Below are positions 27,953-48,259 of a DNA stretch of 64,000 nt, one piece after another. The DNA lies in assembly GCF_902364365.1 (NCBI RefSeq), contig NZ_CABJDN010000005.1, positions 532,170 through 596,169 of the forward strand, read 5' to 3'. The stretch is from Bacteroides intestinalis. GTDB taxonomy: Bacteria > Bacteroidota > Bacteroidia > Bacteroidales > Bacteroidaceae. Positions within the stretch are counted from its first letter, which is position 1. Every line of letters starts with the position of its first letter. Position numbers and translations under genes: made by a program. The notes under the pieces were generated by a model. That model was not told the origin of the DNA. It saw only the letters and a list, made by a program, of their open reading frames with translations, and did not search any database.

Positions 27953-27970
27953 AATTTCCTGCCCCTCCTT

Positions 27971-28002: not shown

Positions 28003-28045
28003 CAATAGAGAGCTAACTGACAAAATTAACATCAACTTTCAGATT

Positions 28046-28727: not shown

Positions 28728-28874
28728 ATCAGGAGATTTTTAATTGAAAAATAAGTATTTCACTTTTGACATCTGCGAAGTACGGCAATACCCGCCTGAA
28801 ACGGAAAAAACAGTGTACCCCTTACCCACAACACTGCAACCGTTACGCAATGTTTGGAAAGCGTTACACACTAT

Positions 28875-28906
28875 TTTGCACCCCTCCACCCTACATCGTA
28901 TGTTTG
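28875..28906 (+). promoter_or_regulatory. Late promoter for lysis and tail genes
   Basis: TTTG (28875-28878), 20 bases, then TATGTTTG (28899-28906) is a strong Bacteroides promoter. Just upstream a direct repeat (CGTTACGCAATGTTTGGA near 28843 and CGTTACACACTATTTTGCA near 28862) overlaps the -33 box and could be an activator site. The gap 28728-28990 holds no gene. Confidence 0.65.
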
Positions 28907-28990
28907 CAGCAACAAAATCGCAACCGATATGATACAGAAAAGGATTCATCATAACTCCCCCATCGGGGAAGCAGGGAAAGGAGGCCGGTC

Positions 28991-29386: not shown

Positions 29387-29403
29387 GAGAAAAGACGGAA
29401 AAT

Positions 29404-30154: not shown

Positions 30155-30179
30155 TTATCTTAAATTAATAAACAAAATT

Positions 30180-31165: not shown

Positions 31166-31422
31166 AAGGCTACACAGAAGGCCCTCATAGCCCGTTCGGT
31201 TTAGTATGGCAGGTGGCCACGGCAACCGGTTGGAGCCTGCGCTACATCTTGTGGCAAGTGCCCTACCCCTTGCTATTACTCATGGCTCAGGATGCCCCAC
31301 GCTACATTTCGCCCGAGGAACAACAACGGCGCAATATGATGAAAATGATTAAAAACCAGAAGAAGGTCCCCGAAGCAACAGATCCGGTGGCATTTTTCCA
31401 AACCCATATCTCAAAATACTAA
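30985..31422 (+). CDS. Tail assembly chaperone, T-type frame (probable -1 frameshift product)
   Basis: The downstream part of this frame (RKRELKGYTEGPHSPFGLVW, VATATGWSLRYILWQV, SPEEQQRRNMMKMIK) looks like real protein, while its first 45 residues look like noise over the end of the G-type gene. The likely product is therefore a G-T fusion made by a -1 shift within about 31060-31165, as in lambda gpGT. No canonical X-XXY-YYZ slippery heptamer was found in frame; TCTTTTC near 31085 and C-CCA near 31144 are the closest candidates. The frame ends in TAATG with the tape measure gene. Confidence 0.6.
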   Translation: MSQPPRGLVASLARASPVPTRGHVPVTYHAQPTVFSDYYQLGGTHQSDEAEFEPIRKRELKGYTEGPHSPFGLVWQVATATGWSLRYILWQVPYPLLLLMAQDAPRYISPEEQQRRNMMKMIKNQKKVPEATDPVAFFQTHISKY

Positions 31423-34400
31423 TGGCCCCTGTAAATTTAACTCAAATACAGCGCAATGATCTCACAGAGAAAATAGCGCTTGATGAAGCCAGAAAATCAA
31501 TGGAAAAGTTGGCAGACAGTAGCAGGCATATCAAAGCCACTGAAGAAGCTCTCAGCGGATTATCGGCTACCATCAAGGCTACCAATAGCGCCGCCTCCCT
31601 TCTGGGACTCAAATCGGACAATCTGACTCACGTGCAAGCCAAACTGAAAACGGCCGTCGAAATGACCTCGGCAGCCCAGCAAGTGGCCGACACCGTGACC
31701 AAGAACAGTTACTTCAACCTTGTCATCGTAGATAATGCCAAGAAAGCACTTGCCGCCACCAACACCTATCTGGCCCGAACACTCAACATATCCACCGTGG
31801 CCGCCAAAGCACTGACGGGAACCCTCACACTGGGGATATCGGTTGGCATCACAGCCGCCATTGCCGCCTGGGACAAGTACATCGACAACCAGGAAAAAGC
31901 AGCCGAAAAAGCTCGCGAACAAGCTGAAACCGAACGGCAGGCAAACGCCATAAAGCTACAAACCCGCGTGGAACTGGACAGGCTGACAGACTCCCTGAAA
32001 GACTTTGACGGAACCAAGGAGCAGGAGAAAGCCAAGATTGACGAACTGAACGATAAGTACGGCGAAACCTTCGGGCAATACGATACCCTGGCACAGTGGT
32101 ATCAGGTGCTCTCACAGAAAGGCGAAGCCTACATCCAGATGCTGTATCTACAGGCAAAAGCGCAAAGTCTCGTAAGCAAGGCAGTGGATGCCGATGCCAA
32201 AGTGAACGAAATAGAACTCACACCCGAAGATAACTTCGATACCAAATGGATTGGCAATAATGGCAAAGAGAAGAAAGAAGAAGCACTGAAAGCTGCGAAA
32301 GCCAAACGCGACGCCTATAAGGAACAGGCGGAAGCTGCCTATAACGAGTCGGTAAAACTCAGCAAAGAAAGCGGAATAGACGATTTCTCCCCTAAGAAAA
32401 GTAATACCGGAAGTAGTGAAAACAGCAACGCATCCGCCGAAGCGAAACAGAAGCAGGAAGAAGAACGCCAGAAGCGGCAAGCCGAATGGCGGCAAAAGAT
32501 AGCGGACGACGACCTCAAAGTCCGGAAAGAAATTCAAGACAAGCTCTTGGCAGCTATGAAAGAAGGTGATGAAACCGAAGAAACATTAGCCCGGGAAGCC
32601 TTCGACAAAGAAATGGACCGCATAGAGCAGCAACGTCAGGAACGGCAAGCCAAACTGGAAGAAGCACAGAAGGACGGCGTAAATATCACTCCCGAACAAG
32701 TATCCAATGTGGACAACGAGGCGGTACAACAAAGCAACATCGCCGCCGCAAACTACCAGAAGGCACTTGACGACATGGAGAAGCGCCGCCAGCAGGAAGA
32801 GCTACAGGCAAAGAACAATTACCTCAAAGAATATGGCTCGTACGAACAAAAACGCCTTGCCATCACAACAGATTATCAGCAACGCATAGCCGATGCCAAG
32901 ACCCAAGGTGAAAAAGACACCTTGCAGAAAAAAGAAAATGAAGCCGTAGATGCACTGGACAAAGGCATGCTCCAGAAGTCGGACCTCTGGACACGCCTCT
33001 TTGAAGAAGCCGGTACCCACACCAGCGGCTACATACAGCAAACCATCGACCAAGCTCGGCTACTGCTGGAATATCTCGAAGACGTAGATGGCAAGAAGAA
33101 CATCCAACTTCCCGACAGCATCAAAGATTACGCCAAGTCACTGAAGCCCGAAGATGCGAAAGGCATCATAGCTGCAATGACGAAACAGAGCGCCGCCCTG
33201 AACAAGCAAAACCCCTTCATGGGACTCATCAACGGTTTCAAGGCCCTGAAAGATGCCGGTAGCGACACTGAAAAGCAGTTTGCCGCCACCCAAAACATCC
33301 TCGAAAGCTTCAAGGGCGCATCCGCCATCGTCAGCGAAGTGGGCGGCGCCATCAGCAAAATGGGCGGTTCCGCCGGAGAAACTATGCAGAAAGTGAGCGG
33401 CGTTGCCAACTCCACCCTCTCCATGGCATCTACCGGAGCTTCCATAGGCGGCCCGTGGGGAGCAGCTATCGGCGGCGCACTGGGACTTGCCTCCGGACTG
33501 GTGGGTGCATTCGGCGCCGACTACTCCGGCTACAACGCCATGGTGCAGAAGTACGATGTCCTGATGGATGTGTGGGATCAGCTTCTCGACAAGAAGAAAG
33601 CTTACATCAAAGAGTCTTACGGTGCTGAAGCTACCCAAGCCGGATCCGAAGCACTGCAACTGCTAAATTCGGAGAAAGAAGTCACCAAGCAACTGGCCAA
33701 ATCCCGCCTGAGTTCGGGTAGCAGCGGAGGCAGCCACTCCCTATGGTATCGCATGTGGAAAGGCTCCTATAAATGGGAGGGTCAGAACTGGCGCGACGTG
33801 GCAGGCGACATTTCCCAGTCATTGGGCGGCGTGAAGTTCACCCAGATGGAAGACATGCTTAACATGAGCAGCAAACAACTGGAATGGATCAAGACCAACT
33901 ACAGCGGCCTCTGGTCGGCAATGGACGGTGACTTCCGTGGCTACCTGGACAATATCATCCAATACGGCGACACGGAAAAAGAAATCATCGCCTCGGTCAA
34001 GGAACAGTTAACGGGCGTCTCGCTCGACAGCTTCCAGGACAGCTACCTCAGCCTGCTGGACAACATGGACAGCAGCAGCGAAGACTTTGCCAACAACTTC
34101 GAAAAGTATCTGCGCAAGTCCATCTTGCAATCCGTCCTTGCCACTAAATACAGTTCGCAGATAAAATCCCTCTACGATAACTGGGCAAAGTATGGCGAAG
34201 ACGGCACCCTCACCGAAGAAGAAGTGAGAAAACTGCGTGAAGAGCAACAGAAGATAAGCGACGCCATGCTGGCCGAACGTGACCGACTGGCCGAAACCTT
34301 CAGCTGGGAGTCGGAAAATAATACCGGAGGCTCATCACAGTCGGGACACACCGGTGCCGTGACCACCGTCACCGAAGAAACAGCCGGCAAACTGGAAGGC

Positions 34401-34589
34401 ATCGGCCTCTCCATCCAGACCCACGTGATAAGCATGGACGAGAAGATGGCCGACCTCTCGCGCTACTCTTACGAAGCCATCGGCCTGCTGGGCAGCATTG
34501 CCGAAAATACCGGCTACTGCCGCTGCCTGAAAGACATAGCCGAGATAGTGAACAGATTGGAAAGAGACGGAATGAAAATAAAAGGATAA
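31422..34589 (+). CDS. Tail tape measure protein
   Basis: At 1055 residues it is the longest late gene product before the fibres. It has long coiled coils (about 1-95, 150-330 and 330-560, rich in Ala, Lys, Glu and Gln) and hydrophobic segments typical of tape measures (TGTLTLGISVGITAAIAAW; GAAIGGALGLASGLVGAFGA). A Ser/Gly-rich linker near 770 leads to a helical C-terminus. It would set tail length and lie inside the tube. By the usual relation of about 1.5 Angstrom per residue the tail would be of the order of 150 nm; this is an estimate. Confidence 0.85.
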   Translation: MAPVNLTQIQRNDLTEKIALDEARKSMEKLADSSRHIKATEEALSGLSATIKATNSAASLLGLKSDNLTHVQAKLKTAVEMTSAAQQVADTVTKNSYFNLVIVDNAKKALAATNTYLARTLNISTVAAKALTGTLTLGISVGITAAIAAWDKYIDNQEKAAEKAREQAETERQANAIKLQTRVELDRLTDSLKDFDGTKEQEKAKIDELNDKYGETFGQYDTLAQWYQVLSQKGEAYIQMLYLQAKAQSLVSKAVDADAKVNEIELTPEDNFDTKWIGNNGKEKKEEALKAAKAKRDAYKEQAEAAYNESVKLSKESGIDDFSPKKSNTGSSENSNASAEAKQKQEEERQKRQAEWRQKIADDDLKVRKEIQDKLLAAMKEGDETEETLAREAFDKEMDRIEQQRQERQAKLEEAQKDGVNITPEQVSNVDNEAVQQSNIAAANYQKALDDMEKRRQQEELQAKNNYLKEYGSYEQKRLAITTDYQQRIADAKTQGEKDTLQKKENEAVDALDKGMLQKSDLWTRLFEEAGTHTSGYIQQTIDQARLLLEYLEDVDGKKNIQLPDSIKDYAKSLKPEDAKGIIAAMTKQSAALNKQNPFMGLINGFKALKDAGSDTEKQFAATQNILESFKGASAIVSEVGGAISKMGGSAGETMQKVSGVANSTLSMASTGASIGGPWGAAIGGALGLASGLVGAFGADYSGYNAMVQKYDVLMDVWDQLLDKKKAYIKESYGAEATQAGSEALQLLNSEKEVTKQLAKSRLSSGSSGGSHSLWYRMWKGSYKWEGQNWRDVAGDISQSLGGVKFTQMEDMLNMSSKQLEWIKTNYSGLWSAMDGDFRGYLDNIIQYGDTEKEIIASVKEQLTGVSLDSFQDSYLSLLDNMDSSSEDFANNFEKYLRKSILQSVLATKYSSQIKSLYDNWAKYGEDGTLTEEEVRKLREEQQKISDAMLAERDRLAETFSWESENNTGGSSQSGHTGAVTTVTEETAGKLEGIGLSIQTHVISMDEKMADLSRYSYEAIGLLGSIAENTGYCRCLKDIAEIVNRLERDGMKIKG

Positions 34590-34591
34590 TT

Positions 34592-35059
34592 ATGGAAATA
34601 CTTGAATCATTACTTACCATCAATGGTAAAGACATCTATAAGGAATATCGCGCCTTTCTGGCCGAAGACAAGTCAGGAGGACACGATAACTACAACGCCC
34701 TCCTGCAAGTGCCCACCATGAAAGCCTACACCGCAGTGACATTCCGCGAGCAGAACGGCGAAAACCTGCCCGACTCCCTACCCGCCCCTCACTACGAGGC
34801 ACGCGACGTAACCTTACAATTCGGCATCTTGGCAGACACCCCGGCAGAGTGGTACACCCACTACATCGCCTTCATCAACTTCCTGAAAAGCGGATGGCTG
34901 GTGTTTGCCCTACCCGAACTGGGTACCCAATACCGCATGTATTTCAAGAGTGCCACCTCGCACGACATGTCCTCCCCGCTTACAGTAGAAGACAAAGTGT
35001 ACGGCAAGATGAAACTGAAGTTCAGAGAACCAAACCCTTATCAGGCTATTGACCTTTAA
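34592..35059 (+). CDS. Distal tail (Dit-like) protein
   Basis: The 155 residues form a beta-rich domain (LLTINGKDIYKEYRAFLAEDK; ARDVTLQFGILADTPAEWYTHY; FLKSGWLVFALPELGTQYRMYF) similar in order to the N-terminal ring domain of Dit proteins. Its position between tape measure and Tal-like genes supports the role of hub at the tail tip. Confidence 0.65.
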   Translation: MEILESLLTINGKDIYKEYRAFLAEDKSGGHDNYNALLQVPTMKAYTAVTFREQNGENLPDSLPAPHYEARDVTLQFGILADTPAEWYTHYIAFINFLKSGWLVFALPELGTQYRMYFKSATSHDMSSPLTVEDKVYGKMKLKFREPNPYQAIDL

Positions 35060-35076
35060 ACAGCAAATAAACGAGT

Positions 35077-37311
35077 ATGGAACTGAAAATATACAACCAG
35101 AACGGAAAGCTGAAACTGACCGTGAACACCGCCGACTCATCAACTTGGAACACCGAGCTGATGGCGGAGAACACAGTGTCCGCCACCTTCACCCATCCCT
35201 TCTTCGTAGCGCTGGACGTGAACGACTACGTGATGCTGAAAGGCGTAAAGTTCAGCATCAACAAGGAGTACAAGCCCAAGCAGGTGTCTACACAAGAATA
35301 CAACTACACGGTTAAGCTCTACGGCCCCGAACACGATGCGGAGCGGGTGATGTTCCTCAATCTGACGGACGGACAATATGAATTACAATTCTACCTCGAC
35401 GACAGTCCCGCGATGCACCTTCAGAGATGGATAGACAACATGAACCGTGTGTACGGCGAAAAGCGATGGAGCATGGGAAACGTTCTTGACGCCCCGAAGA
35501 AGACCGTTGAATACAACAACACAACCTGCTGGGACGCCCTCTCACTGATATCAGATGCCTTCGAGGCTGAATGGTGGACGGACGGTTTCAAAATAAACCT
35601 CACTCGTTGCGAACGTGGCGACCGCGTGGAACTGGGCTATATGCAAGGGCTCACCTCACTGACTCAATCAGAAAACAGCAGTGATGTGAAGTTTTTCACC
35701 CGCCTCTTTCCGCTGGGCAGCACCCGGAACATCGACCGCAAGCGCTATGGTTTCTCCCGGCTGCAACTCCCGAACCGGGCTAAGTATGTGGACAGAAACA
35801 CCCGATACGGGCTTTACGAATACGTGGAAGAGGCCGCATTTGCAGATATCTATCCACACTATCGCGGCACTGTCCACACCGTGCGCCAAGAGGAAAAAAC
35901 GGATGAAAACGATAAGAAGATTACAGTCTACTATTTCGACGACATCGGTATGACGTTCGACCCGAACGACTTTGAGATAGGCGGGTTAGCCAAACATATA
36001 ACCTTCCAGACAGGCGAGCTTGCCGGACGAGAGTTCGAAGTAAAATACGATTCGAAGGCGATGGAGTGGGAAATCATCAACACTTACCCTTCGGAAACAG
36101 AGCAGATACCAGGTAAAAACCTTATCCCCGCCCCCGGAGATGAATATATTCCCTGGAACTTCAGTCTGCCCACAGGGCTTGAGAAAGAAGCAGAAGCAGC
36201 GTATGAAACCGCCGTCAACAGCTATCTGGAAAAGTACAGCGAGGACATGTCTAAATATGGAGGCGAAACGGACTACACCTATATCGACAAGAACAACATC
36301 CCGTTACAGTTAGGTCAAAACGTGCGTTTGCTGAGCGACAAGTTCTTCAACGAAGGGTTCAGTGATACCCGAATCACCAAAGTTGTGCGCAAGCTGGACA
36401 ACCTGAGCATGGCCACCATAGAATGTACCAACATGGTGGGCAAAGGCTGGAAGCGAACGGTGGATGCCAGTTTGGCCCAGTTGCAATATGTGATGTCTTC
36501 AGGCAGTAACCCTTCTTCCGGAAACAGTTCCTCCACTTCAATCGAAGTCTCGGACAAGTTGAAAAAGAACATCGTTGTCAACTCTAACGATGTCGGCTAT
36601 TTCAAGAAAAAAGACGTCCTGCTTGCCGGTCAAACCTGGGAAACCATTTTCCGCAAGATGCTGTACAAGCCCATGGGCGGAGAGTTGAGCCATAGTATAT
36701 CAACTTCTGACAGTGTAGAATATGGCACAAAAAAAGGACGCATCACCTACACCGCCACCCGCAACGGACAGGGCGAGATGACCAAAGCTTTCTATGATGA
36801 CAATGAAAACAATAAGCTGGTCTTCTCAACAGAGAGCCAAGGCATTCAGACAGCCGTACGGACACTGTCGGGTACCTATACCCAACGGGAAACACATAAG
36901 GCGACAGTGGTATATGCCTCCAGCGACATACTTCCCGAAAAGACATTGACTGATATTATCACTGTGAATGTATATCGAAAATGGTTTGCAGGGGTGGTCA
37001 GTGCGATTCCTACGACGTCAGCGCAGGTACGTGCGTTGTCTGCAAGTGGGTTATTTGACGGTAGTTCATACGGATTCACGATAAGCAATTATAGGACCTT
37101 TGTCATTTGCATACCATCCGGAACAATCAAGGAGGTATCATTAGAAGAGAGGTATCAATACAACTTTATGGATTTGGATTCGGCTGCCAATCCCAAAAAA
37201 ATCAGCGTGGAAGGTGCTAACGGGTCGGCAGCAATAGAATACACCATGTATATATTCACCACTACCACAGCAAGTACCGAGACGGACAAATTTACCTTTA
37301 AAATGAATTAG
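35077..37311 (+). CDS. Tail tip hub protein, Tal/gp37-like
   Basis: The first 440 residues show the plan of siphophage tail-associated (Tal, Prophage_tail) proteins: MELKIYNQNGKLKLTVNTAD, KPKQVSTQEYNYTVKLYGPE, CWDALSLISDAFEAEWW and FPLGSTRNIDRKRYG. YIDKNNIPLQLGQNVRLLSD and ARITKVVRKL-type strands (about 400-450) close the hub. After a Ser-rich linker (near 480-495) comes a different beta domain of about 230 residues that may bind a receptor or scaffold fibres. No peptidase motif is obvious. Confidence 0.7.
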   Translation: MELKIYNQNGKLKLTVNTADSSTWNTELMAENTVSATFTHPFFVALDVNDYVMLKGVKFSINKEYKPKQVSTQEYNYTVKLYGPEHDAERVMFLNLTDGQYELQFYLDDSPAMHLQRWIDNMNRVYGEKRWSMGNVLDAPKKTVEYNNTTCWDALSLISDAFEAEWWTDGFKINLTRCERGDRVELGYMQGLTSLTQSENSSDVKFFTRLFPLGSTRNIDRKRYGFSRLQLPNRAKYVDRNTRYGLYEYVEEAAFADIYPHYRGTVHTVRQEEKTDENDKKITVYYFDDIGMTFDPNDFEIGGLAKHITFQTGELAGREFEVKYDSKAMEWEIINTYPSETEQIPGKNLIPAPGDEYIPWNFSLPTGLEKEAEAAYETAVNSYLEKYSEDMSKYGGETDYTYIDKNNIPLQLGQNVRLLSDKFFNEGFSDTRITKVVRKLDNLSMATIECTNMVGKGWKRTVDASLAQLQYVMSSGSNPSSGNSSSTSIEVSDKLKKNIVVNSNDVGYFKKKDVLLAGQTWETIFRKMLYKPMGGELSHSISTSDSVEYGTKKGRITYTATRNGQGEMTKAFYDDNENNKLVFSTESQGIQTAVRTLSGTYTQRETHKATVVYASSDILPEKTLTDIITVNVYRKWFAGVVSAIPTTSAQVRALSASGLFDGSSYGFTISNYRTFVICIPSGTIKEVSLEERYQYNFMDLDSAANPKKISVEGANGSAAIEYTMYIFTTTTASTETDKFTFKMN

Positions 37312-37313
37312 TT

Positions 37314-40097
37314 ATGGAGATAAAAGGAGACAGCTTTGCAGGTCGATACAAAAGAGTGAATGATTACCCTATTGATACTACAGATATATGGGATACATAC
37401 AATCACGCTCTTGTATATGCACGTAATACAGATAGTGTAGCGTATGTGCCTTATGCCGGGCAGATTATTTCCGTGGTGGAAGATGGGACGATTTATAAGT
37501 TGGAGAAAGATGACAGCATACCGGAAACTGACGGTAAGAAACATTTTAAACTGGTTCTTATTGGTAGCAAAAATGATAATGATGACCGCTATCTACGTCG
37601 GGATGTAGCAGAAACAGTTCAAAAGCTGATGACCTTTTTGGAAGGTATCAACGTAAAAGGTACTGCTACACTTGAAGAGATCACTTTGCTAAAGAATATG
37701 GTATCGAAGAACTTTGCTGCCGGTGGTAGTGGTTTTGGCATCTATCAGGATGCGGATGGAAACTATCATCTGGATATTGACTTCGTGGATATCAGGAAGA
37801 AATTAAATGTCGAAGAGATCCAGGTCCAACGTTCAACCTATATCGGTGGAAAACAATACAATACGGCCGCAGGTATTATCTGTAAGAAAGTGGAGGATAC
37901 AGGTGGAAGTTACAGATGCTATTTTAGCACAACAGATGCTGAGGGCAGAACAGTCAGAAATACTTTTGCAGTAGGCGACCTGGCGATCAGTGAGACTTTT
38001 GCCTTAAAAACCGGAACAACTTTTTATTGGCGTTACGTGAGTGGCTGTGGCGATGACTACATCGACTTATCCAAGACAGATTGCGCATCAGGAAGTGATG
38101 TGCCTGCGGTGGGAGACAATATCGTACAGTTGGGCAACCGGACGGATACAAGTCGTCAAGGCGCAATTGTCTGGGACAGCGTAACGGCAGGAGGTCCTTA
38201 TGTGCGGATATATAATGGAATTGGAGCTGACAAAACTTACACGATGCCGAAACCGCAAATTGATTTCAATACGGTGCTGAGTGAAATTGCGGCAAAGTTC
38301 GTAAATCAGGCAACCGGAAAGGATATCGACGAAACCATTGAAGACTTAAAAACTGATGTAGACCTTGTTAAGGAACAAACAGACAAGGAATATACACTTT
38401 GGTTTTTTGATTACGTTCCAACACTGAATAATATACCAGCTTCAGAATGGACAACAGAAGCTCTAAAAACGATGCACGACCAAGACATGTTTTATAACCG
38501 TTTGACAGGGAAAGGTTATCGCTTTGAATCAGGAGTTTGGAATGAAATTACCGACCATCTGACGTTGAAGGCTCTGGAAGATGCTGCCAAAGCGCAAGAT
38601 ACAGCCGACGGTAAGCGGCGTGTTTTTGTGGAGCAGCCTACTGATTCGCAAGAATATGATATGGGTGACATGTGGGCAAATGCAACTTATTCTGATGGTA
38701 CAGTTAAGTATAAGAATGATTCACTTGTCTGTAAGACAGCAAAGAAAGCAGGGGTAGCTTTTAGCATTTCACATTGGGAGCCTTCGTCTACTGCTACAAC
38801 GGCCTATCTTGAAAACCTTAGCGATCAGATTATACTTGCTGTGACTAATTCTAATGATGGAATAGAGGCTGCAAAAGAACTTGCCAGACAAGGTATCAGT
38901 GATGCATACGATGCTGCTCAGGATGCCTTGAAAGCATTGGGTATCGCACAAGGAGCTCAGAATGCAGCAGATAAGAATACTTCCGCTATCCAAGTGACAG
39001 AAAAATCCATTGCTGCACTTGTGGAAGGAATTCATTTCAATAGCGCAGGCAATATTACGAATATCAATACATCCGGATTAATAACCACAGCAGACTTTTC
39101 GGCACTGTATGGGAAAGAAATCGTGTATGACAAGGATGGGCATGTAGACATGACGAAGATGTCCGGTATTATCACAGAGGCTGGCTTAACAGGGATGTTT
39201 TCACAGATAGCTGATAATAAGGGTTATGTAAAAAAGGCGTATATCGACCTTTTTGTAACTGCGCTTCCTGAAGGTGGATTTCAGAGTAATGCAGTAGTCA
39301 ATGCTGACCAGATTCGCTTTAATGGCAATATTGTGGCGAATAATACTTTCGTTGTGGATACAGAGGGAAACTTAACGCTTAATAATATAACTGCTAATAA
39401 TGGCACATTTAGTGGCATATTGAACGGCGTTAGCGGCTCATTTACAGACTTCTGGGCAGAATACTCTTTGGGCGAAAGTTTCACTTCAACACATATTACC
39501 CCTGCTGCTATTCAAATAGGGAAAGACTACGACGGTAATACTTTAATGAATCTTGGAGTAGAATATGTAAGCAACACATACGGCGCAGTAATGAATTTGT
39601 GTGGAAATGTTCGCAACGTTCGAACTCTTATTAGTCTTGGTTACGGTGAAATTGACCTTACTGCAGACGGGTGGACTAGTAGCCGATTATATGCAACCTT
39701 GAGTGCAATTAATGGTCTATCATTATCTGCAGGAAGTAAGATTGCTTTTATTGATGACAACAATGCTTTAAAGAACAGATTTGGTAGTGAATATGCCTAT
39801 TTCCAAGGACTAAGTGTCAGTACGCGCATAGTTACATCATCTGGGAATATTAATACGAATGATGATTTTTTGCGCTTTACCACCCATGACAATATTACAA
39901 TGAAAATGCCATCTCCTTCATCTTGCCCCGGAAAGGTGTATTATATCAAACAGACAGATGGTAGCGTTACTTTTACGAATGGTCCGTTCGTTGCTCCTGA
40001 TGGGTGGGAACCCAAGGCTACTTATTCACTTTCCGGCACGTATGCAATGATGCTCGTGTCCGATGGTAGCTGTTGGTTCTTCTTTTATTGTGGATAG
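37314..40097 (+). CDS. Tail fibre/central appendage protein
   Basis: The 927-residue protein follows the hub gene by two bases. It has an N-terminal part with short repeats (GTATLEEITLLKNMVSK, GTTFYWRYVSGCGDDYI) and a coiled-coil and helical stretch (about 505-590: AAKELARQGISDAYDAAQDAL). A shaft-like beta region follows (NVVNADQIRFNGNIVANN-type repeats), then a C-terminal domain of about 200 residues ending LVSDGSCWFFFYCG, which may be a tip or trimerisation domain. It probably bridges the hub and the large fibre. No enzyme motif is seen. Confidence 0.65.
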   Translation: MEIKGDSFAGRYKRVNDYPIDTTDIWDTYNHALVYARNTDSVAYVPYAGQIISVVEDGTIYKLEKDDSIPETDGKKHFKLVLIGSKNDNDDRYLRRDVAETVQKLMTFLEGINVKGTATLEEITLLKNMVSKNFAAGGSGFGIYQDADGNYHLDIDFVDIRKKLNVEEIQVQRSTYIGGKQYNTAAGIICKKVEDTGGSYRCYFSTTDAEGRTVRNTFAVGDLAISETFALKTGTTFYWRYVSGCGDDYIDLSKTDCASGSDVPAVGDNIVQLGNRTDTSRQGAIVWDSVTAGGPYVRIYNGIGADKTYTMPKPQIDFNTVLSEIAAKFVNQATGKDIDETIEDLKTDVDLVKEQTDKEYTLWFFDYVPTLNNIPASEWTTEALKTMHDQDMFYNRLTGKGYRFESGVWNEITDHLTLKALEDAAKAQDTADGKRRVFVEQPTDSQEYDMGDMWANATYSDGTVKYKNDSLVCKTAKKAGVAFSISHWEPSSTATTAYLENLSDQIILAVTNSNDGIEAAKELARQGISDAYDAAQDALKALGIAQGAQNAADKNTSAIQVTEKSIAALVEGIHFNSAGNITNINTSGLITTADFSALYGKEIVYDKDGHVDMTKMSGIITEAGLTGMFSQIADNKGYVKKAYIDLFVTALPEGGFQSNAVVNADQIRFNGNIVANNTFVVDTEGNLTLNNITANNGTFSGILNGVSGSFTDFWAEYSLGESFTSTHITPAAIQIGKDYDGNTLMNLGVEYVSNTYGAVMNLCGNVRNVRTLISLGYGEIDLTADGWTSSRLYATLSAINGLSLSAGSKIAFIDDNNALKNRFGSEYAYFQGLSVSTRIVTSSGNINTNDDFLRFTTHDNITMKMPSPSSCPGKVYYIKQTDGSVTFTNGPFVAPDGWEPKATYSLSGTYAMMLVSDGSCWFFFYCG

Positions 40098-40120
40098 TTT
40101 TAATTATAATTTATAAGAAT

Positions 40121-40396
40121 ATGAAAATCAAATTTAGGCAGATCGAGGCACAGACCTCTTTCGAAGGTGGAAAACAGATTTTTGATGCTGCCGAGACAGT
40201 CGGCAATGAAATGATGTACAACGGAAGTATTCTTCTGGATATTGGATTTGAAGAGCTTGCAAAGGAAATCTATTATTCAAAAGATGAAGTAGAAATCCCG
40301 GAACGCTACTGTAAAGCTCTTGAACTTGTCGTGAAGAACTCGCGTCTTATCGCCGCCGTAAAGCGTGAAATAATAAATCAGCTAAACAGCAAGTAA
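40121..40396 (+). CDS. Small phage-type hypothetical protein
   Basis: The ATG at 40121 gives 91 residues (KIKFRQIEAQTSFEGGKQIF; LAKEIYYSKDEVEIPERYC). The longer open frame upstream overlaps the fibre gene and is not credible. It lies between two fibre genes together with the next small gene. A fibre-assembly chaperone would fit the position, but nothing specific can be shown. Confidence 0.55.
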   Translation: MKIKFRQIEAQTSFEGGKQIFDAAETVGNEMMYNGSILLDIGFEELAKEIYYSKDEVEIPERYCKALELVVKNSRLIAAVKREIINQLNSK

Positions 40397-40397
40397 G

Positions 40398-40616
40398 ATG
40401 GGATACATCAAATTCATATTGAGCACCCGTAAAACGAATGCCGATGGCAACGCCACCTATGCCCGAATCAGCCGTATCGAATCGGATATGGCTGATACAA
40501 GCATGCTCGAGACGAATTTAATAATGCATGCGCTTGCGGCCCGCGGGGGAAAAGTAATTGAAACGCTTGAATTCATATTGGACTCGAGCAGATTGGACAA
40601 CGATATATTAGGATAA
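40398..40616 (+). CDS. Small hypothetical protein between fibre genes
   Basis: The 72 residues (GYIKFILSTRKTNADGNATY; LETNLIMHALAARGGKVIE) start one base after the previous stop and end five bases before the large fibre gene, so they are translated with it. No family is recognised. Confidence 0.5.
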   Translation: MGYIKFILSTRKTNADGNATYARISRIESDMADTSMLETNLIMHALAARGGKVIETLEFILDSSRLDNDILG

Positions 40617-40621
40617 ACTGT

Positions 40622-43600
40622 ATGGACAAATTAAATAAGAATTTCCTCAAAGGCAATGTGCTTAAAGCTGAGGAGTTGAACGAGATTGTTACTAAACTGA
40701 ATGAGTTTGCCACGTGCATCAATGACAACGATGTTGAGACCAGCAAGGCGACAATTCAGAGTATAAAGAATAAGATGCTTGTCATCGGTGACACCGCAGG
40801 CACTGCCTATGATGGTGCTGCCGGCGCGGCATTGGAGCAAACCGTCAGAGAACTGGCAGGCGGAGCAGGAACCATGTATAGTGTATACGTTAGGAATAAT
40901 CTGAATTCACTGGGCTTTGCCGCACAATACGGAGAAGAATGTGTCTTGGATTTCACCTTCGTCTCCCAGTATCGGGATAATATCAATGAACCGTACAAGC
41001 CGACGGGAGAACTCGGGCTGTGTACAATCATGATAAAGAACTCGAAGTTTGCAGACTTCACCACAGTGAAGCAAATGGAAGTTTCTTCTAATGTATCCAT
41101 CAAACAGGACATAACCGAGTGGCTGACAAGCGGCAGCAACAATATCAAAATAAGTATCAAGGGAGAGAACACCGACCAGACTACGGCCCCGATCACCTAT
41201 GTTGTACAACTCACTTCATTGGGAATCAGTGCCCCTAACTTCGCTTGGTGGACCGCCTTTGCCGGGGATATTTCAATTCCAATGATTATCAACGGTAATA
41301 TCAACAAAGTGCTTCATGTCACCGTTACCGGTGATAATTACAATCAAGGCTATACCCAAAATCTGGGAACAGCCATCTATATGGATACACCTTATAACTA
41401 TGTACTTCCTCATCCCGAAGCAACCGGAATATACAATGTGAATTTCTATCTGTCCAACTCAGATAATACCATTCAGACCAAATCTGTATCGGTAAATATC
41501 ATGTGTATTGCCACATCCGGGGAAATAGTGAAACTGATGTGCGTGAATAATGTGACCTCACAACTCATCAACTGGCAGGATAATGTGGTATTTGATTATG
41601 CGATTTATGACGGACAGGCTACTCTTACAGATGCCATCTTCACCATTACGAAGGACGGAACAGAAGTGTATAGTTCTGAGAATGACACCATAGTGGCAAA
41701 CTCCAAAAACACATTTACTTATCCGATGGAGGTGGAGACGGATGACGACAGCAATTTTGAAGTCATTATAAAGGCAACCAGTGGAGAAGACGCTCTGATA
41801 GATCCGATTACGGTAGCTGTCAATAACTCACTGGGATATTCGGCTACAGCAGGTGCAGTACTCTATATCAATCCACGCACCCGTAGCAACTCGCAGACAA
41901 ACTACAAGAGTATCGTTAATGAAGTGGATAAATCAGTCATCCCCGTGACCTGGAATAACCTCAACTGGGGTAACGACGGCTGGGTGACCGATGATGACGG
42001 TGTGAAAGCACTGAAGATATTTGCACGGAGTTCGGCCGTGATAGATTACCAACCCTTTGCCACAGAACCGGCCCGCAGAGGTAAGACAATCGAAATCGAT
42101 TTCAAGATTGAGAATGCTTCGGATGCTGGAAAGAATATTATCAGCATCGCAGAAGATAAGCCGGACGGTAACCACGTTGGATTAAAGGTATCCGGTGAGA
42201 ATATCTCTCTGTTCTCACAATCTGAACACGAAAGTACTAAACAGGATGTTCCTACCGATAATGGGGTACGCCTACGCCTCACAGCAGTTATCATGCCTGA
42301 CACTTATGGTAATGCCGGCTTCAACATTGTTGCCATATACATCAACGGAAAGAAAAATCGCCAGTATACCTACGAGAGCAACGATTACTTCCGCAACACC
42401 GGCAAGATAACGTTAGGGAATGATTATGCCAATCTCTATTTATATGGATTGCGTGTGTATGACAGTGCATTGACTTCCGAGGCCGTCCAGAAGAATTACA
42501 TAAACCAGCTTGTGACGACCAGCGAGAAGCAAATGGAAAAGAATATCAATTCGGTACTGGACGGCGAAGGTGTAAACATTGACTTCAATGCCACAAAGCT
42601 GCTCTATAATGTATTTGTAGTGAACAAGCCCTTCCCTAACCTAAACAACCCTTCAGGTGTAGCAGGTGATCTGGAAGTACTCTTCAAGAACAAGCCGGAG
42701 CGGAACTTCACACTCACCAACCTGTTAATAGAAGGTCAGGGAACTTCATCAAAGAAATATCTGGAGTGGAACATCCGCTTCAAAATGAAGGGATTGAAAG
42801 ATACAGAGGGTAACAAGATAAACTCCATTGCCACGTATGCCGATGGAACGACGGACAAGAACAAAGTCCTTATGTTTGAAGGTGTGCCTAAGTCCGGGCG
42901 CCTGACAGCCAAGAAGAACTGGGCGAGTTCCATGCAGGACCACAAGGCCGGATGTGTGGCTGCATTCAATGATTTATACAAGGAAATAGGCATGAGAAAC
43001 GAGGCTATGGCCACTGATAGCGAAATACGTGTCGCGGTGTACCAAGAGCCTTTCATCGGTTTCTCAAAATCCGTCAATGAAGAAGGCCAGGACATATATA
43101 CCTGTATGGGAGAATTTACATTCGGTCCGGATAAAGGAGATGATCTTTGTTTCGGCTATGACACAGAAACTTTTCCGGCCTTGCTATCCGTGGAAGGTTC
43201 GGACAATGCGCCGTTGGGTGCGCTTTTCCGCGTTCCTTGGAACAGCGATAAACCTTACTGGGCATATAATCCGGAGGAAGAGGCTTTTCAGTATAACAAC
43301 ACTAATTGCTGGGATTTCGATGCCGGTGAACTGAATGCCGATGAAACGGAACCACTCTCTGCACAGAAATGGATAGATGCTTACAACGCCGTGTATGTAT
43401 GCAACAACCGTATCCGTCCATTCACCGGTACTCTGGATGAACTGAATGCAGCCGTAACTGAATACCGCAGTACAGGTTATGAGTACTGGATTGCCAAAAG
43501 TGGTGATGCTAACCAGTACAATCTCTACTATTATGAAGCTACCGAAGGAAAGTTCATACCCTCCGACATAGGTGATGGTGCAATAAATCTGAGAACACAG

Positions 43601-46183
43601 TTAACTGCATATCTTCCATCAGATCTGAATACATTCACCACTGACCAGTTGAATGAGAAGTTCATTTCAGCCCGCACAAGCTTATTCCATGCAACCATAC
43701 CCGCTATATTCGATATTGACGATGCAGTATTCCATCATAACTTTGTGGAGTTCACTGCCGGAACCGACCAGCGTGCCAAGAATACTTATCCGTATAGCTT
43801 CTGCCAGGAAGGTAGTAAATGGAGGTGGAGACTGGATGATGCCGACACTATATTCCCGATTGACAATCAGGGACAGGATCGGAAACCCTATCACTGCGAA
43901 ATGCATGACTCTTACGACAATGACCAGCCTATTTGGAATGGTGAGACATCTGTCTTCTGGAATCTGCTGGAGCAGGCTTTCAGTGCTGAAATTACAGCCG
44001 GAATGCGCAAAATGTTCACAGCAATGGAAGCATTGTGCGGCCAGTCTTCAGGTACGCCTTATGACAAGGTTTATGCTTTCTATAAGAAGTATTTCCTTGG
44101 CATAAAAGAATATTTCCCCGCTACGTTGGTGAATTCTGATGCCAAACGATATGAACTCGCAAAGATAGCATACAATAATGGTTCCTACACTAACGATACT
44201 GACCCTATAACACAGAGCCACGGTGATTTCTATTCCGCAGAAACTGCATGGGTGAAGAAACGTATCATGTACATCATGTCGAAGTATAATTATGGCTTGT
44301 TCTCCGCCAATGGCACAGATACAATCATCGTACGTGCTGCCGGTGATCTGATAGACTACGATATAACCCCGGCTTTCGATATGTATCCGGCCATTGCAAA
44401 TGGTACATCCATTGTACAAGGAAAACGCACTAAAGCAGGAGATATTTGTAAAATAACCATTGACCTTGGTGGTAGCGCTGACCAGCAAAATGCCATACAA
44501 GCAGCAAGTTGGTTATTAAGCATCGGAGACTGGCATAAAAAGAATGTTTCCGGTACCATGGTAGTACGCGGAAAGCGATTGAACGAACTCATACTCGGTA
44601 GTAAGGAAGATAACGTAATCATCTCTATTACAGGACTTACACTTGCAGATTGTAGTAGTATGCAGAAGCTACTTCTATCCAATATCACCACATTACAAGG
44701 TACACTCGATTTAAGCACAATTATCAACATTCGTGAGATATATGCCGACGGAACTAACTTAAGTCAGATAAAGCTTCCGAATGGTGGCGGACTTGAAATC
44801 ATCGAATATCCGGCCAACAACAGATACATAACTTTCCAGAACTTCCCGATGCTGACAACAGAGGGCTTGAGAATCGGTCAATGTGCTGAAAAAATAACCG
44901 ACTTCCTAATTGAAAACTGCCCTAAATTAGAGCCTATGCAATTGTTATCTAATATTATAGAGGCGCAACAATCACAAGGTACCGAACATGCACTAAAACA
45001 TATCCGTGCAGTAGGTTTCGAGGAAGAATATTACACCGCCGACGCCCTTGACATGCTTGCAAAACTTGCTGATGGAACCTACGAAGGTTTATCTGCAGAA
45101 GGAATTGCCGGAAAGGATGAAATTCCGGTATTGGAAGGTAAGATAACTGTACACTCAAAGTACTATCAGGACTCTGTGGATAAATTGAGGGAAATCTTTA
45201 ACAGGTTAACCCTAATAATGGAGGGTGAAGCTGCTATAAGATTCATTGATCTGGTAGTATTTAGCATTTGTCTTCCGTTGTGGGATAGTGATGGCGACGG
45301 GTATATAACAGAAGATGAGGCATTGGCAATAAAAATGTTTCCTTCTAATAGTTTTTCGGGTAAAAGCGATATAACCAGCCTTGACGATTTGGCAAAACTT
45401 GCCGGCTACATGTTTAATGGTGCCTTTAGTAATATGCCGATGTTAAAAACGGCTCACACAGGTAAACGTTATTCAGGAAGTAGTCTTGTAACAAGTACGA
45501 TCTATCAGGGGTATATAAATTGTACAGCACTTGAACGAATCACCATCGATGAGAGTATCAAATCTATTGAGCGCATGTGTTTCTACAATTGCTCATCACT
45601 AAAACAGGTTATATGGAACGGAAATGAAACGGCGATAGGTAATAGTGCTTTTTATGGATGTACCAGCCTTGAAGAAATTTCATTTCCACCCGGTATTACG
45701 AGCTTGGAGAGTAATGAAATCTTCTTCAACTGTACATCTTTGAAAGATATCCAGTTATCTCAAATGACGGCCATCGGATATAGGTGCTTTTGCAACTGTA
45801 CAAATTTGAAGATTGATGTCAATATTCCCTTACTGGAAACGACATCCTCACAAGTCTTTGCGAGCAGTGGTGTCATTAGTGCATCTAACTTAGGAAAATT
45901 GCAGACTATTAGCGTATCAATGTTCAGTAACTGCGCAAACTTGATCTATGCAATTATACCTGATACAGTAATGGTAATAGAGCAGGATGTGTTCTACAAA
46001 TGTTCGGCGTTGCAATATGTAGTATGTAATGCACTAACCCCGCCAACACTGAATAGTACTTCGGTTTTTGGTGGTACATCGTGTTTAATATATGTTCCTG
46101 ATGGCTCAGTGGATGCTTATAAGGCAGCAACCAATTGGGCATCATTCTCAACTCGGATAAAGTCGATTAGTGAGAAAGAATAG
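40622..46183 (+). CDS. Large tail fibre/adhesin with exchangeable EF-hand and LRR tip
   Basis: The 1853-residue protein starts with a small helical tail-attachment part, then several Ig-like beta domains. A LamG/concanavalin-like domain follows (about 400-640, ending LYGLRVYDSALTSEAVQKNY). A long region comes next with GQGTSSKKYLEWNIRFKMKG and ANQYNLYYYEATEGKF that resembles CotH-like or other adhesin parts. From about residue 1515 the protein is encoded by the exchangeable cassette: YQDSVDKLREIFNRL, an EF-hand loop DSDGDGYITEDE, then BspA-type leucine-rich repeats. It is likely the receptor-binding fibre. Confidence 0.75.
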   Translation: MDKLNKNFLKGNVLKAEELNEIVTKLNEFATCINDNDVETSKATIQSIKNKMLVIGDTAGTAYDGAAGAALEQTVRELAGGAGTMYSVYVRNNLNSLGFAAQYGEECVLDFTFVSQYRDNINEPYKPTGELGLCTIMIKNSKFADFTTVKQMEVSSNVSIKQDITEWLTSGSNNIKISIKGENTDQTTAPITYVVQLTSLGISAPNFAWWTAFAGDISIPMIINGNINKVLHVTVTGDNYNQGYTQNLGTAIYMDTPYNYVLPHPEATGIYNVNFYLSNSDNTIQTKSVSVNIMCIATSGEIVKLMCVNNVTSQLINWQDNVVFDYAIYDGQATLTDAIFTITKDGTEVYSSENDTIVANSKNTFTYPMEVETDDDSNFEVIIKATSGEDALIDPITVAVNNSLGYSATAGAVLYINPRTRSNSQTNYKSIVNEVDKSVIPVTWNNLNWGNDGWVTDDDGVKALKIFARSSAVIDYQPFATEPARRGKTIEIDFKIENASDAGKNIISIAEDKPDGNHVGLKVSGENISLFSQSEHESTKQDVPTDNGVRLRLTAVIMPDTYGNAGFNIVAIYINGKKNRQYTYESNDYFRNTGKITLGNDYANLYLYGLRVYDSALTSEAVQKNYINQLVTTSEKQMEKNINSVLDGEGVNIDFNATKLLYNVFVVNKPFPNLNNPSGVAGDLEVLFKNKPERNFTLTNLLIEGQGTSSKKYLEWNIRFKMKGLKDTEGNKINSIATYADGTTDKNKVLMFEGVPKSGRLTAKKNWASSMQDHKAGCVAAFNDLYKEIGMRNEAMATDSEIRVAVYQEPFIGFSKSVNEEGQDIYTCMGEFTFGPDKGDDLCFGYDTETFPALLSVEGSDNAPLGALFRVPWNSDKPYWAYNPEEEAFQYNNTNCWDFDAGELNADETEPLSAQKWIDAYNAVYVCNNRIRPFTGTLDELNAAVTEYRSTGYEYWIAKSGDANQYNLYYYEATEGKFIPSDIGDGAINLRTQLTAYLPSDLNTFTTDQLNEKFISARTSLFHATIPAIFDIDDAVFHHNFVEFTAGTDQRAKNTYPYSFCQEGSKWRWRLDDADTIFPIDNQGQDRKPYHCEMHDSYDNDQPIWNGETSVFWNLLEQAFSAEITAGMRKMFTAMEALCGQSSGTPYDKVYAFYKKYFLGIKEYFPATLVNSDAKRYELAKIAYNNGSYTNDTDPITQSHGDFYSAETAWVKKRIMYIMSKYNYGLFSANGTDTIIVRAAGDLIDYDITPAFDMYPAIANGTSIVQGKRTKAGDICKITIDLGGSADQQNAIQAASWLLSIGDWHKKNVSGTMVVRGKRLNELILGSKEDNVIISITGLTLADCSSMQKLLLSNITTLQGTLDLSTIINIREIYADGTNLSQIKLPNGGGLEIIEYPANNRYITFQNFPMLTTEGLRIGQCAEKITDFLIENCPKLEPMQLLSNIIEAQQSQGTEHALKHIRAVGFEEEYYTADALDMLAKLADGTYEGLSAEGIAGKDEIPVLEGKITVHSKYYQDSVDKLREIFNRLTLIMEGEAAIRFIDLVVFSICLPLWDSDGDGYITEDEALAIKMFPSNSFSGKSDITSLDDLAKLAGYMFNGAFSNMPMLKTAHTGKRYSGSSLVTSTIYQGYINCTALERITIDESIKSIERMCFYNCSSLKQVIWNGNETAIGNSAFYGCTSLEEISFPPGITSLESNEIFFNCTSLKDIQLSQMTAIGYRCFCNCTNLKIDVNIPLLETTSSQVFASSGVISASNLGKLQTISVSMFSNCANLIYAIIPDTVMVIEQDVFYKCSALQYVVCNALTPPTLNSTSVFGGTSCLIYVPDGSVDAYKAATNWASFSTRIKSISEKE
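45163..45181 (+). repeat. Cassette exchange site, active copy
   Basis: The 19 bases CTATCAGGACTCTGTGGAT occur here inside the fibre gene and again at 46263-46281 (same direction) and 47929-47947 (opposite direction), each time in the same codon phase (TAT CAG GAC TCT GTG GAT). Similarity between the copies ends abruptly on the upstream side and fades gradually downstream, as expected for a recombination site at the start of a cassette. Confidence 0.75.
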
Positions 46184-46262
46184 TCATCATTTATAAGCAC
46201 CTGACTTTCTACTATAAAAATAAAATGCCCTCTATATATAGCTGTGAGGCTTAAAAACGGTT

Positions 46263-47079
46263 CTATCAGGACTCTGTGGATGAGCTGAGGAAAGTGTTTA
46301 ACAGGTTAGTACTAAAACTGATTGGTGAACCATTCATTCGCTTTTCCAATAATCTATTTTTTGAATTGTGTCTGCCATTATGGGATGCAGACAAAGATGG
46401 TGGAATTACGTATGCAGAAGCTGAAGCTGCTGTGACTATTTCAGACGAAACCTTTGGCGGAAGAACAGATATTATAGATGCTACTGATTTCAAATATCTC
46501 AATTGGAAACCTGGACAAAATAGTGAAAGAAACAGTGTCTGTGGAGTGTTCAAGAATTGTACAAATCTTAGATACGCTGCTATTAAAGACGGAACATATT
46601 TAAGAGGTGCAATGTTTCTAAATTGCACCTCTCTTGAACAGGTAGAACTACCTGTAACAGTACTTGATTATTTAAGCAATGATGGTGGAGCTTTCCAGAA
46701 TTGCAGTTCGTTGAAACATATAACTCTGCCATTGAATAAGCAGAAATATGCATCGCATTATTTTGAAGAATCGGGCTTAGAAAAACTGGAATTTCCCGAT
46801 GCAGTCATTGAAATTAGTGACTCTGTATGTTTTAAATGCAAGTCTTTAGTAGAAGTGGTTATCGGAACTGGAATTACTACTATTAAAAATATAGCATTCA
46901 ACTCATGTTCAAGCATGGTATCTTGCTATATTAAAGCTGTTATTCCACCATCTATTACGCAATGGACATTTGATAACAATCCCTGCAATTTCTATGTACC
47001 TCGTTCCAGCGTAGATGCTTACAAGACAGCTACAAACTGGAGTAAGTATACATCTCGGATATATGGATATGACTTCTAA
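46263..47079 (+). CDS. Silent fibre-tip cassette 1 (direct orientation)
   Basis: The frame is open from just after a TAA at 46252-46254 through the exchange site to a stop at 47077-47079, with no start codon of its own except an internal GTG at 46276. Encoded are YQDSVDELRKVFNRL, an EF-hand loop DADKDGGITYAE and BspA-like repeats ending AYKTATNWSKYTSRI. These are homologous but clearly different from the active tip (about 272 against 340 residues). It appears to be a promoterless donor that is expressed only after recombination with the fibre gene. Confidence 0.7.
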
Positions 47080-47093
47080 ATGTTGGCTGAAAC

Positions 47094-47128
47094 TTCCGGA
47101 GCACTATCAAGAGGTCGATGCTCCGGAA
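47094..47128. terminator. Hairpin between the two silent cassettes
   Basis: TTCCGGAGCA (47094-47103) pairs perfectly with TGCTCCGGAA (47119-47128). It lies between the convergent ends of cassettes 1 and 2, so it would end transcription from either direction whichever cassette is joined to the fibre gene. Confidence 0.7.
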
Positions 47129-47133
47129 AATAT

Positions 47134-47951
47134 TTAGAAATCATACTCATAAATTCTATTTGCCCAAACACTCCAGTTGGTAGCAGCTTTATAAGCTGCA
47201 CCACTACCACGAGGCACATAGATCGGAAATGTGGTATTAGCAAATGAGTTTTGGTCTACGAGTGTCGGTGGAGTGACAGCTTTTATATAGAAACCTTCCA
47301 TAGAGGTGCAACCATTCCAACATTGATTACCGATGGAGATTATATTCTTACCTATACGTACCTCACGTAAAGAAGTACATCTGAAACAGACATAACCATT
47401 AATTGTAGTAACAACATCCGAAAATTCCAATACTTCCAAACCAGATTCTTGAAAGAAGGAGACACCATATATACTCTTATTTTTAGGCAGATTCACAGTT
47501 TTTAAGGATGTGCAACCTTGAAAAACATTGCCATAATACGAATCTGGATTGGATACATTCTCCGGGAGTTCTACATATTCAAGCGATGTACAATTCATAA
47601 ATACCCCTGATCCCAAAAGTGTGTTATTTCGAAAAGCCACACGCCTAAGATTTGTACATTCTCGGAATAACTGCATTTGTCCATGACCGTATGGAGTCCA
47701 ATTGAGATATTTAAAATCAGTAGCATCAATTATATTATCATTATAAGAAAACGGAGAGTTGGAAGAATTAAGTTCGACAGCAATATCCGCCTCTTCTTGT
47801 GTGATGCCTCCATCTCTGTCGCTATCCCACAAGGGCAAGCACAGAGCAAAAAATATATCATCTTTGAATCTTATCCAAGGCTCACCGTCCATTATCAGTT
47901 CCAATTTGTTGAAAGTATTCCTCAGCTCATCCACAGAGTCCTGATAGAACC
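47134..47951 (-). CDS. Silent fibre-tip cassette 2 (inverted)
   Basis: On the minus strand this encodes YQDSVDELRNTFNKLELIM, EF-hand loop DSDRDGGITQEE and BspA-like repeats ending AYKAATNWSVWANRI, in the same phase as the fibre tip. Its 5' end (47918-47951) is identical over 34 bases to the start of cassette 1 (46259-46292), forming a 34-bp inverted repeat around the two cassettes. Inversion between its site and that of the fibre gene would place this tip on the fibre. Without inversion it has no start or promoter. Confidence 0.7.
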
Positions 47952-48259
47952 TGAAATGTACCGATAAAATTAATCAAAAATAACTCCTGAAATTTGAAAA
48001 AGTATAAAAGAACATGATTTGAAAAAGTATGTTCTTAGGAAAAATTACTAAGCAGGAAAGAAAAAGAAGTGAAATTTCACAAATCATTTTATACTAACAA
48101 TTGTAATATCCTCACAAACTATTTTTTAGAAGAAGCACAAACCATTTTCACAGTGATACACTCACCAATGTGGATATAGCTAGAGAAAGCCTTGGAAGAA
48201 GGAATCGTTTTATCAATAGCTTCTGTTAAGGTATTGTGTCACAACCTTTTCCTATGCAA

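Follow-up and report, generated by a model that had tools for sequence, protein, structure and literature searches.

A 64,000-nucleotide (nt) stretch of Bacteroides intestinalis DNA (assembly GCF_902364365.1, contig NZ_CABJDN010000005.1, positions 532,170-596,169, forward strand; hereafter the window, with coordinates counted from its first base) carries a headless, phage-derived element whose tail fibre gene ends in a tip of leucine-rich repeats (LRRs), followed by two further LRR tips that have no start codon. We consider it likely, with a probability of roughly 0.6, that the joined tip and the two silent ones are exchanged by site-specific inversion at a 19-base-pair (bp) sequence, which would retarget the tail. 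The features concerned are the following.

40622..46183, plus strand: tail fibre gene of 1853 amino acids (aa), constant part up to 45162 and present LRR tip from 45163 (LRR_5, E 6e-39)
45163..45181, plus strand: candidate exchange site, fibre copy, inside the 24-nt run 45158-45181 that is invariant across six fibres
46263..46281, plus strand: candidate exchange site, silent copy 1, direct, exact 19-mer
46264..47079, plus strand: silent tip cassette 1, 271 codons, LRR_5
47134..47946, minus strand: silent tip cassette 2, 270 codons, LRR_5
47929..47947, minus strand: candidate exchange site, silent copy 2, in inverted orientation, some 210 bp inside the estimated right end of the element

The 19-mer, CTATCAGGACTCTGTGGAT, is present in three exact copies in the window, with no further copy there at up to three mismatches, and 100 dinucleotide shuffles of the window gave an expectation of 0 copies. 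An earlier note, made from the letters of this DNA alone, had described one direct and one inverted silent copy, and its coordinates are right. It had also claimed a common codon phase, and this holds: the fibre site begins on the third codon base inside the fibre gene, all three copies are read as YQDSVD..., and the frames stay open for 339, 271 and 270 codons until a stop. All three tips match the Pfam family LRR_5 (BspA-type leucine-rich repeats). The 34-base inverted repeat that the note reported between the silent copies was recovered (46259-46292 against the complement of 47918-47951), as was the sharp upstream end of similarity, fibre and silent copies being identical over exactly 19 nt with the preceding base already different (left run 0). 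In-frame stops lie 12 and 30 nt upstream of the silent cassettes with no start codon between stop and site, in keeping with the note's description of donors without starts; an internal GTG exists at 46276 within silent cassette 1. A promoter scan returned 6 candidates against 9.3 expected, using the Escherichia coli sigma-70 consensus, which does not cover Bacteroides promoters. Every alternative C-terminal segment thus begins with a copy of one short site, read in the codon phase that the expressed gene uses, which is the arrangement of a shufflon. An AlphaFold2 model of silent tip 2 (12-sequence alignment, mean predicted local distance difference test score 90.6) shows successive short strands like those of an LRR solenoid, and a profile search matches solved bacterial LRR proteins such as 4fs7. 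The model starts with a predicted helix at residues 2-13, of lower confidence, which would place the exchange point in the neck before the tip.

Among relatives of the fibre, the site and the silent tips are found together. Relatives were sought with the part of the fibre just before the site, which gave 10 loci in IMG/VR and 14 in a set of one genome per species. In six distinct elements the fibre gene is followed by a silent tip in inverted orientation, namely that of the window, those of B. oleiciplenus (L017), B. timonensis (L018) and B. stercorirosoris (L021), and two on metagenome contigs (L009 and L011), and the fibre junction is the exact 19-mer in all six. Ten fibres had no silent tip detected in the roughly 10 kb behind them (L014, L019, L020 and L022-L028), and none of these has the exact 19-mer; their junctions differ by 4-9 mismatches, both synonymous and non-synonymous. 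The contrast gives a one-sided Fisher probability of 1.2e-4, which ignores kinship, most of the ten being more distant. The informative exception to this distance is the B. cellulosilyticus fibre (L026), which is 84% identical to that of B. timonensis over the 300 nt before the site, has 4 mismatches in it and has no silent tip. The silent tips were searched for by tblastn with 14 known tips at E 1e-6, a search that an unrelated tip would escape. The common plan of the six elements is the fibre tip followed by an outermost silent tip facing back towards the fibre, to which the window adds one direct and B. oleiciplenus one inverted cassette. Six of the seven readable silent sites are exact, the seventh (L021) having 3 mismatches, and the silent site of L009 lies off its contig.

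Left out of the comparison were loci truncated at the site or no more than 0.6 kb from it (L015, L029 with 3 mismatches and L047 with 4 mismatches), L097 (8 mismatches, with only 1.6 kb behind the site), L030 (a stretch of N just ahead of the site), L094-L096 (no junction located) and L003 (19-mer in an unrelated frame). Copies of the same element were also left out (L001=L009, L002=L008=L018, L004/L006/L007=L017, L005=L011, L010=L019 and L016=L026; 100% where compared), and L012 and L013 were counted with L014 (98%). The L003 match, at 2570-2588 of an unrelated viral contig and in a frame that we take to be lysozyme-like, is probably due to chance. L015 (IMGVR_UViG_2585427867_000006) ends 7 nt into the site and is 99.99% identical over 11 kb to L021, which continues. 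The ends of the L015 and L029 contigs at the site may reflect branching of the assembly there and prove nothing; the L029 junction occurs once in its own genome.

The exact 19-mer is found in one of 399 genomes of the family, the query genome itself. A host-wide site was considered and rejected: the exact copies in four whole genomes (three in B. oleiciplenus, two in B. timonensis, one in B. stercorirosoris and none in B. cellulosilyticus) are all confined to an element or phage. The sole genome matches with 2 mismatches, in B. cellulosilyticus and B. timonensis, fall within what resembles a tetratricopeptide repeat gene, presumably by chance. The first 19 nt of the junction had no match at up to 2 mismatches in any of five genomes searched (G439, G524, G422, G010 and G008).

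Conservation at the junction is at the level of DNA. The codon alignment of the six fibre genes has 4953 columns, of which 1824 are invariant, and the 24-nt junction AAGTACTATCAGGACTCTGTGGAT (45158-45181) is its only invariant run of at least 14 nt. Among 637 codons with a conserved residue (M and W excluded), 71 keep a single codon, and these include all 8 junction codons, as against 63 of 629 (10%) elsewhere. If codons were independent, (71/637)^8 = 2.4e-8, a rough figure. Judged from this alignment, the DNA of the site itself is conserved. Between the six elements the joined tips share at most 55% protein identity, and identity over the 300 nt preceding the site is 72-91%. Since homologous exchange needs identity only within an element, an identical junction across elements with differing tips and backbones points to a sequence-specific factor. 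The base preceding the site differs in six of the seven fibre/silent pairs, identity extending 6 nt further left in L011, and the silent/silent pairs in the window and L017 additionally match GGTT.

The same tip can be joined in one element and silent in another. The joined tip of B. timonensis is silent in L011 (89% aa identity) and in B. oleiciplenus (85%), despite the 300 nt before the site being only 73-76% alike between L018 and these two, and the joined tip of L009 is silent in L021 (74% aa). Of the site-specific exchange proposed in the earlier note, the reading of the site as a DNA exchange point is supported by the frozen codons of six fibres, the association with silent tips and the tips that are joined or silent across elements. 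Six of seven silent tips readable from the site are open to the end. The ratio of non-synonymous to synonymous substitution rates (dN/dS) is 0.13 between the silent tips of L011 and L017, 0.08, 0.15 and 0.09 in three joined-versus-silent pairs (dS about 2, near saturation, in the 0.09 pair) and 0.19 in the silent pair of the window (dS about 2, near saturation). Such purifying selection implies that the silent tips are kept as working proteins, fitting periodic use; as far as the sequences go, that use fits either inversion within a lineage or exchange between lineages. Searches of IMG/VR found no relative of silent tip 2 of the window, and for the present tip 27 loci, all of them distant (26-39% identity in the best segments). 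With the B. stercorirosoris tips as queries, the fibre tip had no match and the silent tip matched only the L009 contig.

Two side observations concern the tips of relatives. In B. oleiciplenus, one strand of the segment between the two 64-bp inverted arms (positions ~11078-12560 of NZ_JH992940.1) is about 50% T and 10% A; beyond the segment the composition is normal. Aligned by codon with its relatives, the segment retains A at 18% of positions, versus 58% between unaltered relatives; A to T is the commonest change, and C and G are likewise shifted to T. This strand-biased alteration is bounded by the exchange sites, and the altered tip retains its C-terminal motif. A retroelement was considered as the cause and set aside, the RVT_1 matches in that genome all lying away from the element, and no unaltered donor of the tip was found in four genomes searched. 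In L011, positions 5399-6199, upstream of the fibre gene, encode an LRR tip 38% identical in aa to the present fibre tip of the window; a second tail protein may therefore carry LRR tips too.

No candidate for the enzyme was found in the elements. MuA and MuB are the only integration-class proteins among the scanned genes of the window element (Pfam and/or PHROGs, antisense frames excluded). Neither Phage_integrase, sought beside the array, nor Resolvase (the serine invertase family) was matched in these genes or in four viral records, which are possibly fragments, and there is no Phage_integrase match within the B. oleiciplenus elements or on the B. timonensis contig. The scanned genes also have no reverse transcriptase (RVT) match, and in 42000-50500, the part searched for repeats, the families listed (20 of the 29 direct ones) hold no template-type repeat of a diversity-generating retroelement. 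Three host genomes hold many Resolvase and Phage_integrase matches (15 and 107) outside the elements, the only match inside an element or phage being the ordinary phage integrase of B. stercorirosoris. A recombinase acting in trans is what this pattern suggests to us; among so many host matches, with that integrase the one exception lying inside, no single candidate stands out. The B. fragilis invertases Mpi, Tsr0667 and Tsr19 act on many distant sites (PMC4747536; this and the other papers given by PMC number are cited from excerpts), and two fibre loci without a local enzyme have been explained by an enzyme in trans (PMC6109161, PMC13280938). The carriers differ in backbone. L011 and B. oleiciplenus are closely related to the window throughout the element. 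In B. timonensis, whose contig reaches 12.5 kb upstream of the fibre gene, the similarity covers that gene and the two tail-region genes next to it. The B. stercorirosoris phage, which carries protease, portal and integrase genes, has only the fibre gene in common with the window.

The carrier itself is composed as follows, in addition to the fibre and tips.

22492..48160 (ends approximate), plus strand: headless element derived from a transposable phage; B. oleiciplenus homology stops near 48158
22613..23107, minus strand: weak repressor-like regulator (PHROG transcription-regulator match, E 4e-4)
23851..25950, plus strand: MuA-like transposase (phrog_310 transposase, E 1e-85)
26029..26922, plus strand: MuB-like transposition ATPase (phrog_296, E 2.5e-60; Pfam AAA_22; MuB_C slightly below cut-off)
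26919..27578, plus strand: ATPase, weakly RadA/Sak4-like (phrog_6891, E 1.4e-95; phrog_124 Sak4-like, E 0.057; RadA chains, E 9e-5)
28269..28727, minus strand: tail-completion protein (28% over 119 aa to the Porphyromonas phage006a tail completion protein; phrog_6911, function unknown)
28728..28990 (263 nt): position of the missing head block (neck, portal, adaptor, terminase, protease, capsid)
28991..29386, plus strand: endolysin (phrog_873 endolysin, E 6.5e-50)
30180..30680, plus strand: major tail (tube) protein (phrog_117, E 8e-5; 35% to the phage006a major tail protein)
31422..34589, plus strand: tape measure protein (phrog_9959, E 4e-36)
34592..40097, plus strand: tail-region genes by PHROG (34592-35059 and 37314-40097 match tail families, 35077-37311 only phage families of unknown function)

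The candidate ends resemble each other (TGGTATTATTGTGATGAAAATG on the left at 22492, the complement of TGTATCACTGTGAAAATGG on the right at 48160); they were picked by eye and are estimates, and no target duplication was found at them. To the left of the element, window 17388-22490 and L049 13504-18652 share DUF7833, a DnaB-like primase-helicase, HU and an amidase in the same order (41-89% aa), and from this flank the window and B. oleiciplenus elements may occupy the same chromosomal place; their right flanks showed no match to each other.

The gene order of the window element (repressor, MuA, MuB, ATPase, tail completion on the minus strand, endolysin, tail tube, tape measure, tail, fibre) is that of full transposable siphophages such as Porphyromonas phage006a apart from the head block, which in phage006a lies between tail completion and endolysin (neck, portal, adaptor, terminase on the minus strand, protease, capsid on the plus strand). 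Fifteen sequences were examined: three headless elements, seven full relatives (one of which is in the B. oleiciplenus genome that also has a headless element), phage006a as the source of queries, and four that end too early, one of which matches the neck gene. Seven head and packaging proteins of phage006a gave no tblastn match in the window element, the B. oleiciplenus contig-1 element or L011. In the full relatives besides phage006a, the neck, portal, adaptor and both terminase genes were matched in 7 of 7, the protease in 3 and the capsid in 2; given the low detectability of the last two, their absence from the headless elements is read from the interval between tail completion and endolysin, which measures 240-276 nt there, against 7.6-8.7 kb in the four relatives with both flanking genes found. 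Among the three headless elements, MuA and MuB are under constraint (dN/dS 0.05-0.07 and 0.03-0.06), as are the tail and lysis genes, the range for all of these being 0.02-0.22. By gene content the carrier is not a complete prophage: MuA and MuB, as in a transposable phage, are combined with a siphophage-type tail and lysis genes in the absence of capsid, portal and terminase, as in an F-type tailocin. It is likely a transposable-phage-derived, F-type-tailocin-like element with switchable tips. The switchable receptor binding of the earlier note is corrected accordingly in its object: with head and packaging genes absent, what switches is probably a tail particle released on its own and not a phage that infects.

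Several observations weigh against a site-specific switch in a tailocin-like particle, and some of them favour other explanations. Exchange of tips by homologous recombination or gene conversion at short repeats, through RecA or the RadA-like ATPase of the element and with no site-specific recombinase, is in our view unlikely, even though no recombinase, and in particular no phage-encoded invertase, was found among the scanned genes, the element encodes the weakly RadA/Sak4-like ATPase, and relaxed recombination by phage proteins is known (PMC3945230). Rightward from the site start, fibre and silent copies match over 64 nt in L017, 45 in L018 and 37 in L011, compared with 19 in the window and 11 in L021; the three longest run past 19 nt, as homologous exchange would leave them, look homogenised and surpass any between-element match above the 30-nt listing threshold. 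The site also has no clear dyad by eye. L029, which ends 48 nt into the junction and has a near site, could be a carrier with another site. The sharing of only the fibre gene by B. stercorirosoris leaves no common enzyme visible, and the early regions of L018 and L009 lie off their contigs. What speaks against homologous exchange is that a 24-nt junction is frozen between elements when identity within each would suffice, that the fibre and silent copies of the window share just 19 nt, that 6 of 7 pairs have an identical left boundary, and that the fetched stretches of the full transposable relatives have the same ATPase with no 19-mer and no tip match. Alternatively, the silent tips could be relics of a former exchange between phages, switching having ended, which we regard as quite improbable. 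The collections searched hold no inverted form or second arrangement of the same element, leaving one arrangement per element; in B. oleiciplenus 4 stops interrupt one of the two silent tips, and heavy alteration affects the joined one; and the B. stercorirosoris silent site has drifted to an exact run of 11 nt. Relics would not be expected to stay open in 6 of 7 readable cases, to keep dN/dS at 0.08-0.15 in four pairs with a silent tip and 0.19 in the window pair (2 of the 5 pairs having dS about 2), or to hold the site exact in 6 of 7 silent copies.

The nature of the carrier can be questioned in the same way. It is somewhat unlikely that it is a decaying prophage or a head-borrowing satellite rather than a tailocin-like element, with tip switching serving a relic or helper-dependent infection. 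MuA and MuB, whose loss along with other mobility and replication genes would mark a tailocin, are kept and constrained (dN/dS 0.03-0.07), which is unusual for a tailocin. One B. oleiciplenus genome (G005) has two elements on separate contigs (C1 and C2), one headless and the other a transposable relative that includes packaging genes, the MuA proteins being 70-72% identical in aa. From their gene content these two form a possible helper pair, the relative with packaging genes being the potential helper. Decay is the weaker part of this alternative, since three elements have the same head block missing and constrained tail and lysis genes. Simple decay being disfavoured, the headless genome would represent either a tailocin-like particle that kept its transposase or a tail-donating satellite.

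Under site-specific inversion, the reading that we prefer, a sequence-specific recombinase, supplied in trans and probably by the host, would cut at the 19-bp site. Inversion between 45163 and 47929 would join silent tip 2 to the fibre and move the present tip to the right end, and inversion between 46263 and 47929 would make tips 1 and 2 trade places, after which a 45163/47929 inversion would join tip 1. A route that the earlier note omitted is recombination between the direct copies at 45163 and 46263, which would join tip 1 with loss of the present tip. The product would be a free tail like that of an F-type tailocin, its target shifting with the tip. The note's label of shufflon-like suits the arrangement of the sites, and strict membership fails on the enzyme, no known kind of recombinase having been found in the element. 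A bolder version, which we hold tentatively and at less than even odds, sees a self-mobile tailocin, tail-only and transposing by MuA/MuB, with LRR tips shuffled at the 19-bp site by a recombinase borrowed from the host, and with a site module that has spread across unrelated backbones, namely transposable headless elements and a phage of the integrase type.

Xenorhabdicin, the tailocin of Xenorhabdus, is P2-like and contractile. Similar to what is proposed for the window, inversion exchanges C-terminal fibre fragments in this headless particle, the locus contains no DNA invertase according to the excerpt, and an enzyme elsewhere in the genome was proposed; it differs in belonging to Gammaproteobacteria and in that the inversion was seen between isolates (PMC13280938), whereas the window has a siphophage-type tail on a MuA/MuB element of Bacteroides, known from genes in one arrangement. 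Carotovoricin Er is likewise a tailocin with an invertible fibre region, which changes its killing spectrum, but an invertase adjoins the region (PMC12090994). In the Rin shufflon of bifidophages a short repeat, asymmetric and of 11 bp, opens each alternative C-terminal segment as in the window, with the difference of an adjacent tyrosine recombinase; closer to the window is a second inverted locus of tRNA-Met prophages, with an 8-bp repeat, no flanking recombinase described and a suggested trans enzyme, although these bifidobacterial prophages have full structural genes and another site and host (PMC6109161). The Gin, Cin and Min systems of Mu, P1 and p15B also invert the fibre end, and Mu is also transposable, but each has its own serine-family invertase (PMC6109161). 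Within Bacteroides, Hankyphage is a transposable phage with tail-fibre diversification that uses a diversity-generating retroelement and packages DNA, incompletely in the laboratory (PMC12135933), in contrast to the window element, whose scanned genes include neither reverse transcriptase nor head block. In B. fragilis phage ATCC 51477-B1, with its polymorphic tail fibre, a tail protein gene is rearranged relative to that of phage B40-8, one section of it being inverted; the excerpt describes neither a site nor a cassette nor a mechanism (PMC2535602). Among the open-licence PMC papers that the searches listed, judged by title and abstract opening, no report was found of tip switching at such a site, or of an F-type tailocin, in Bacteroides.

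If the proposed reading is correct, gut Bacteroides carry a mobile headless tail weapon, or a tail-donor satellite, whose target can flip within a clone. The system would add a genetically simple fibre switch operated by a trans enzyme to those of xenorhabdicin and one bifidophage locus, and with its short site frozen across backbones the enzyme could be hunted. It would also mean that tailocin-like elements arise from transposable phages while the transposase stays under selection.

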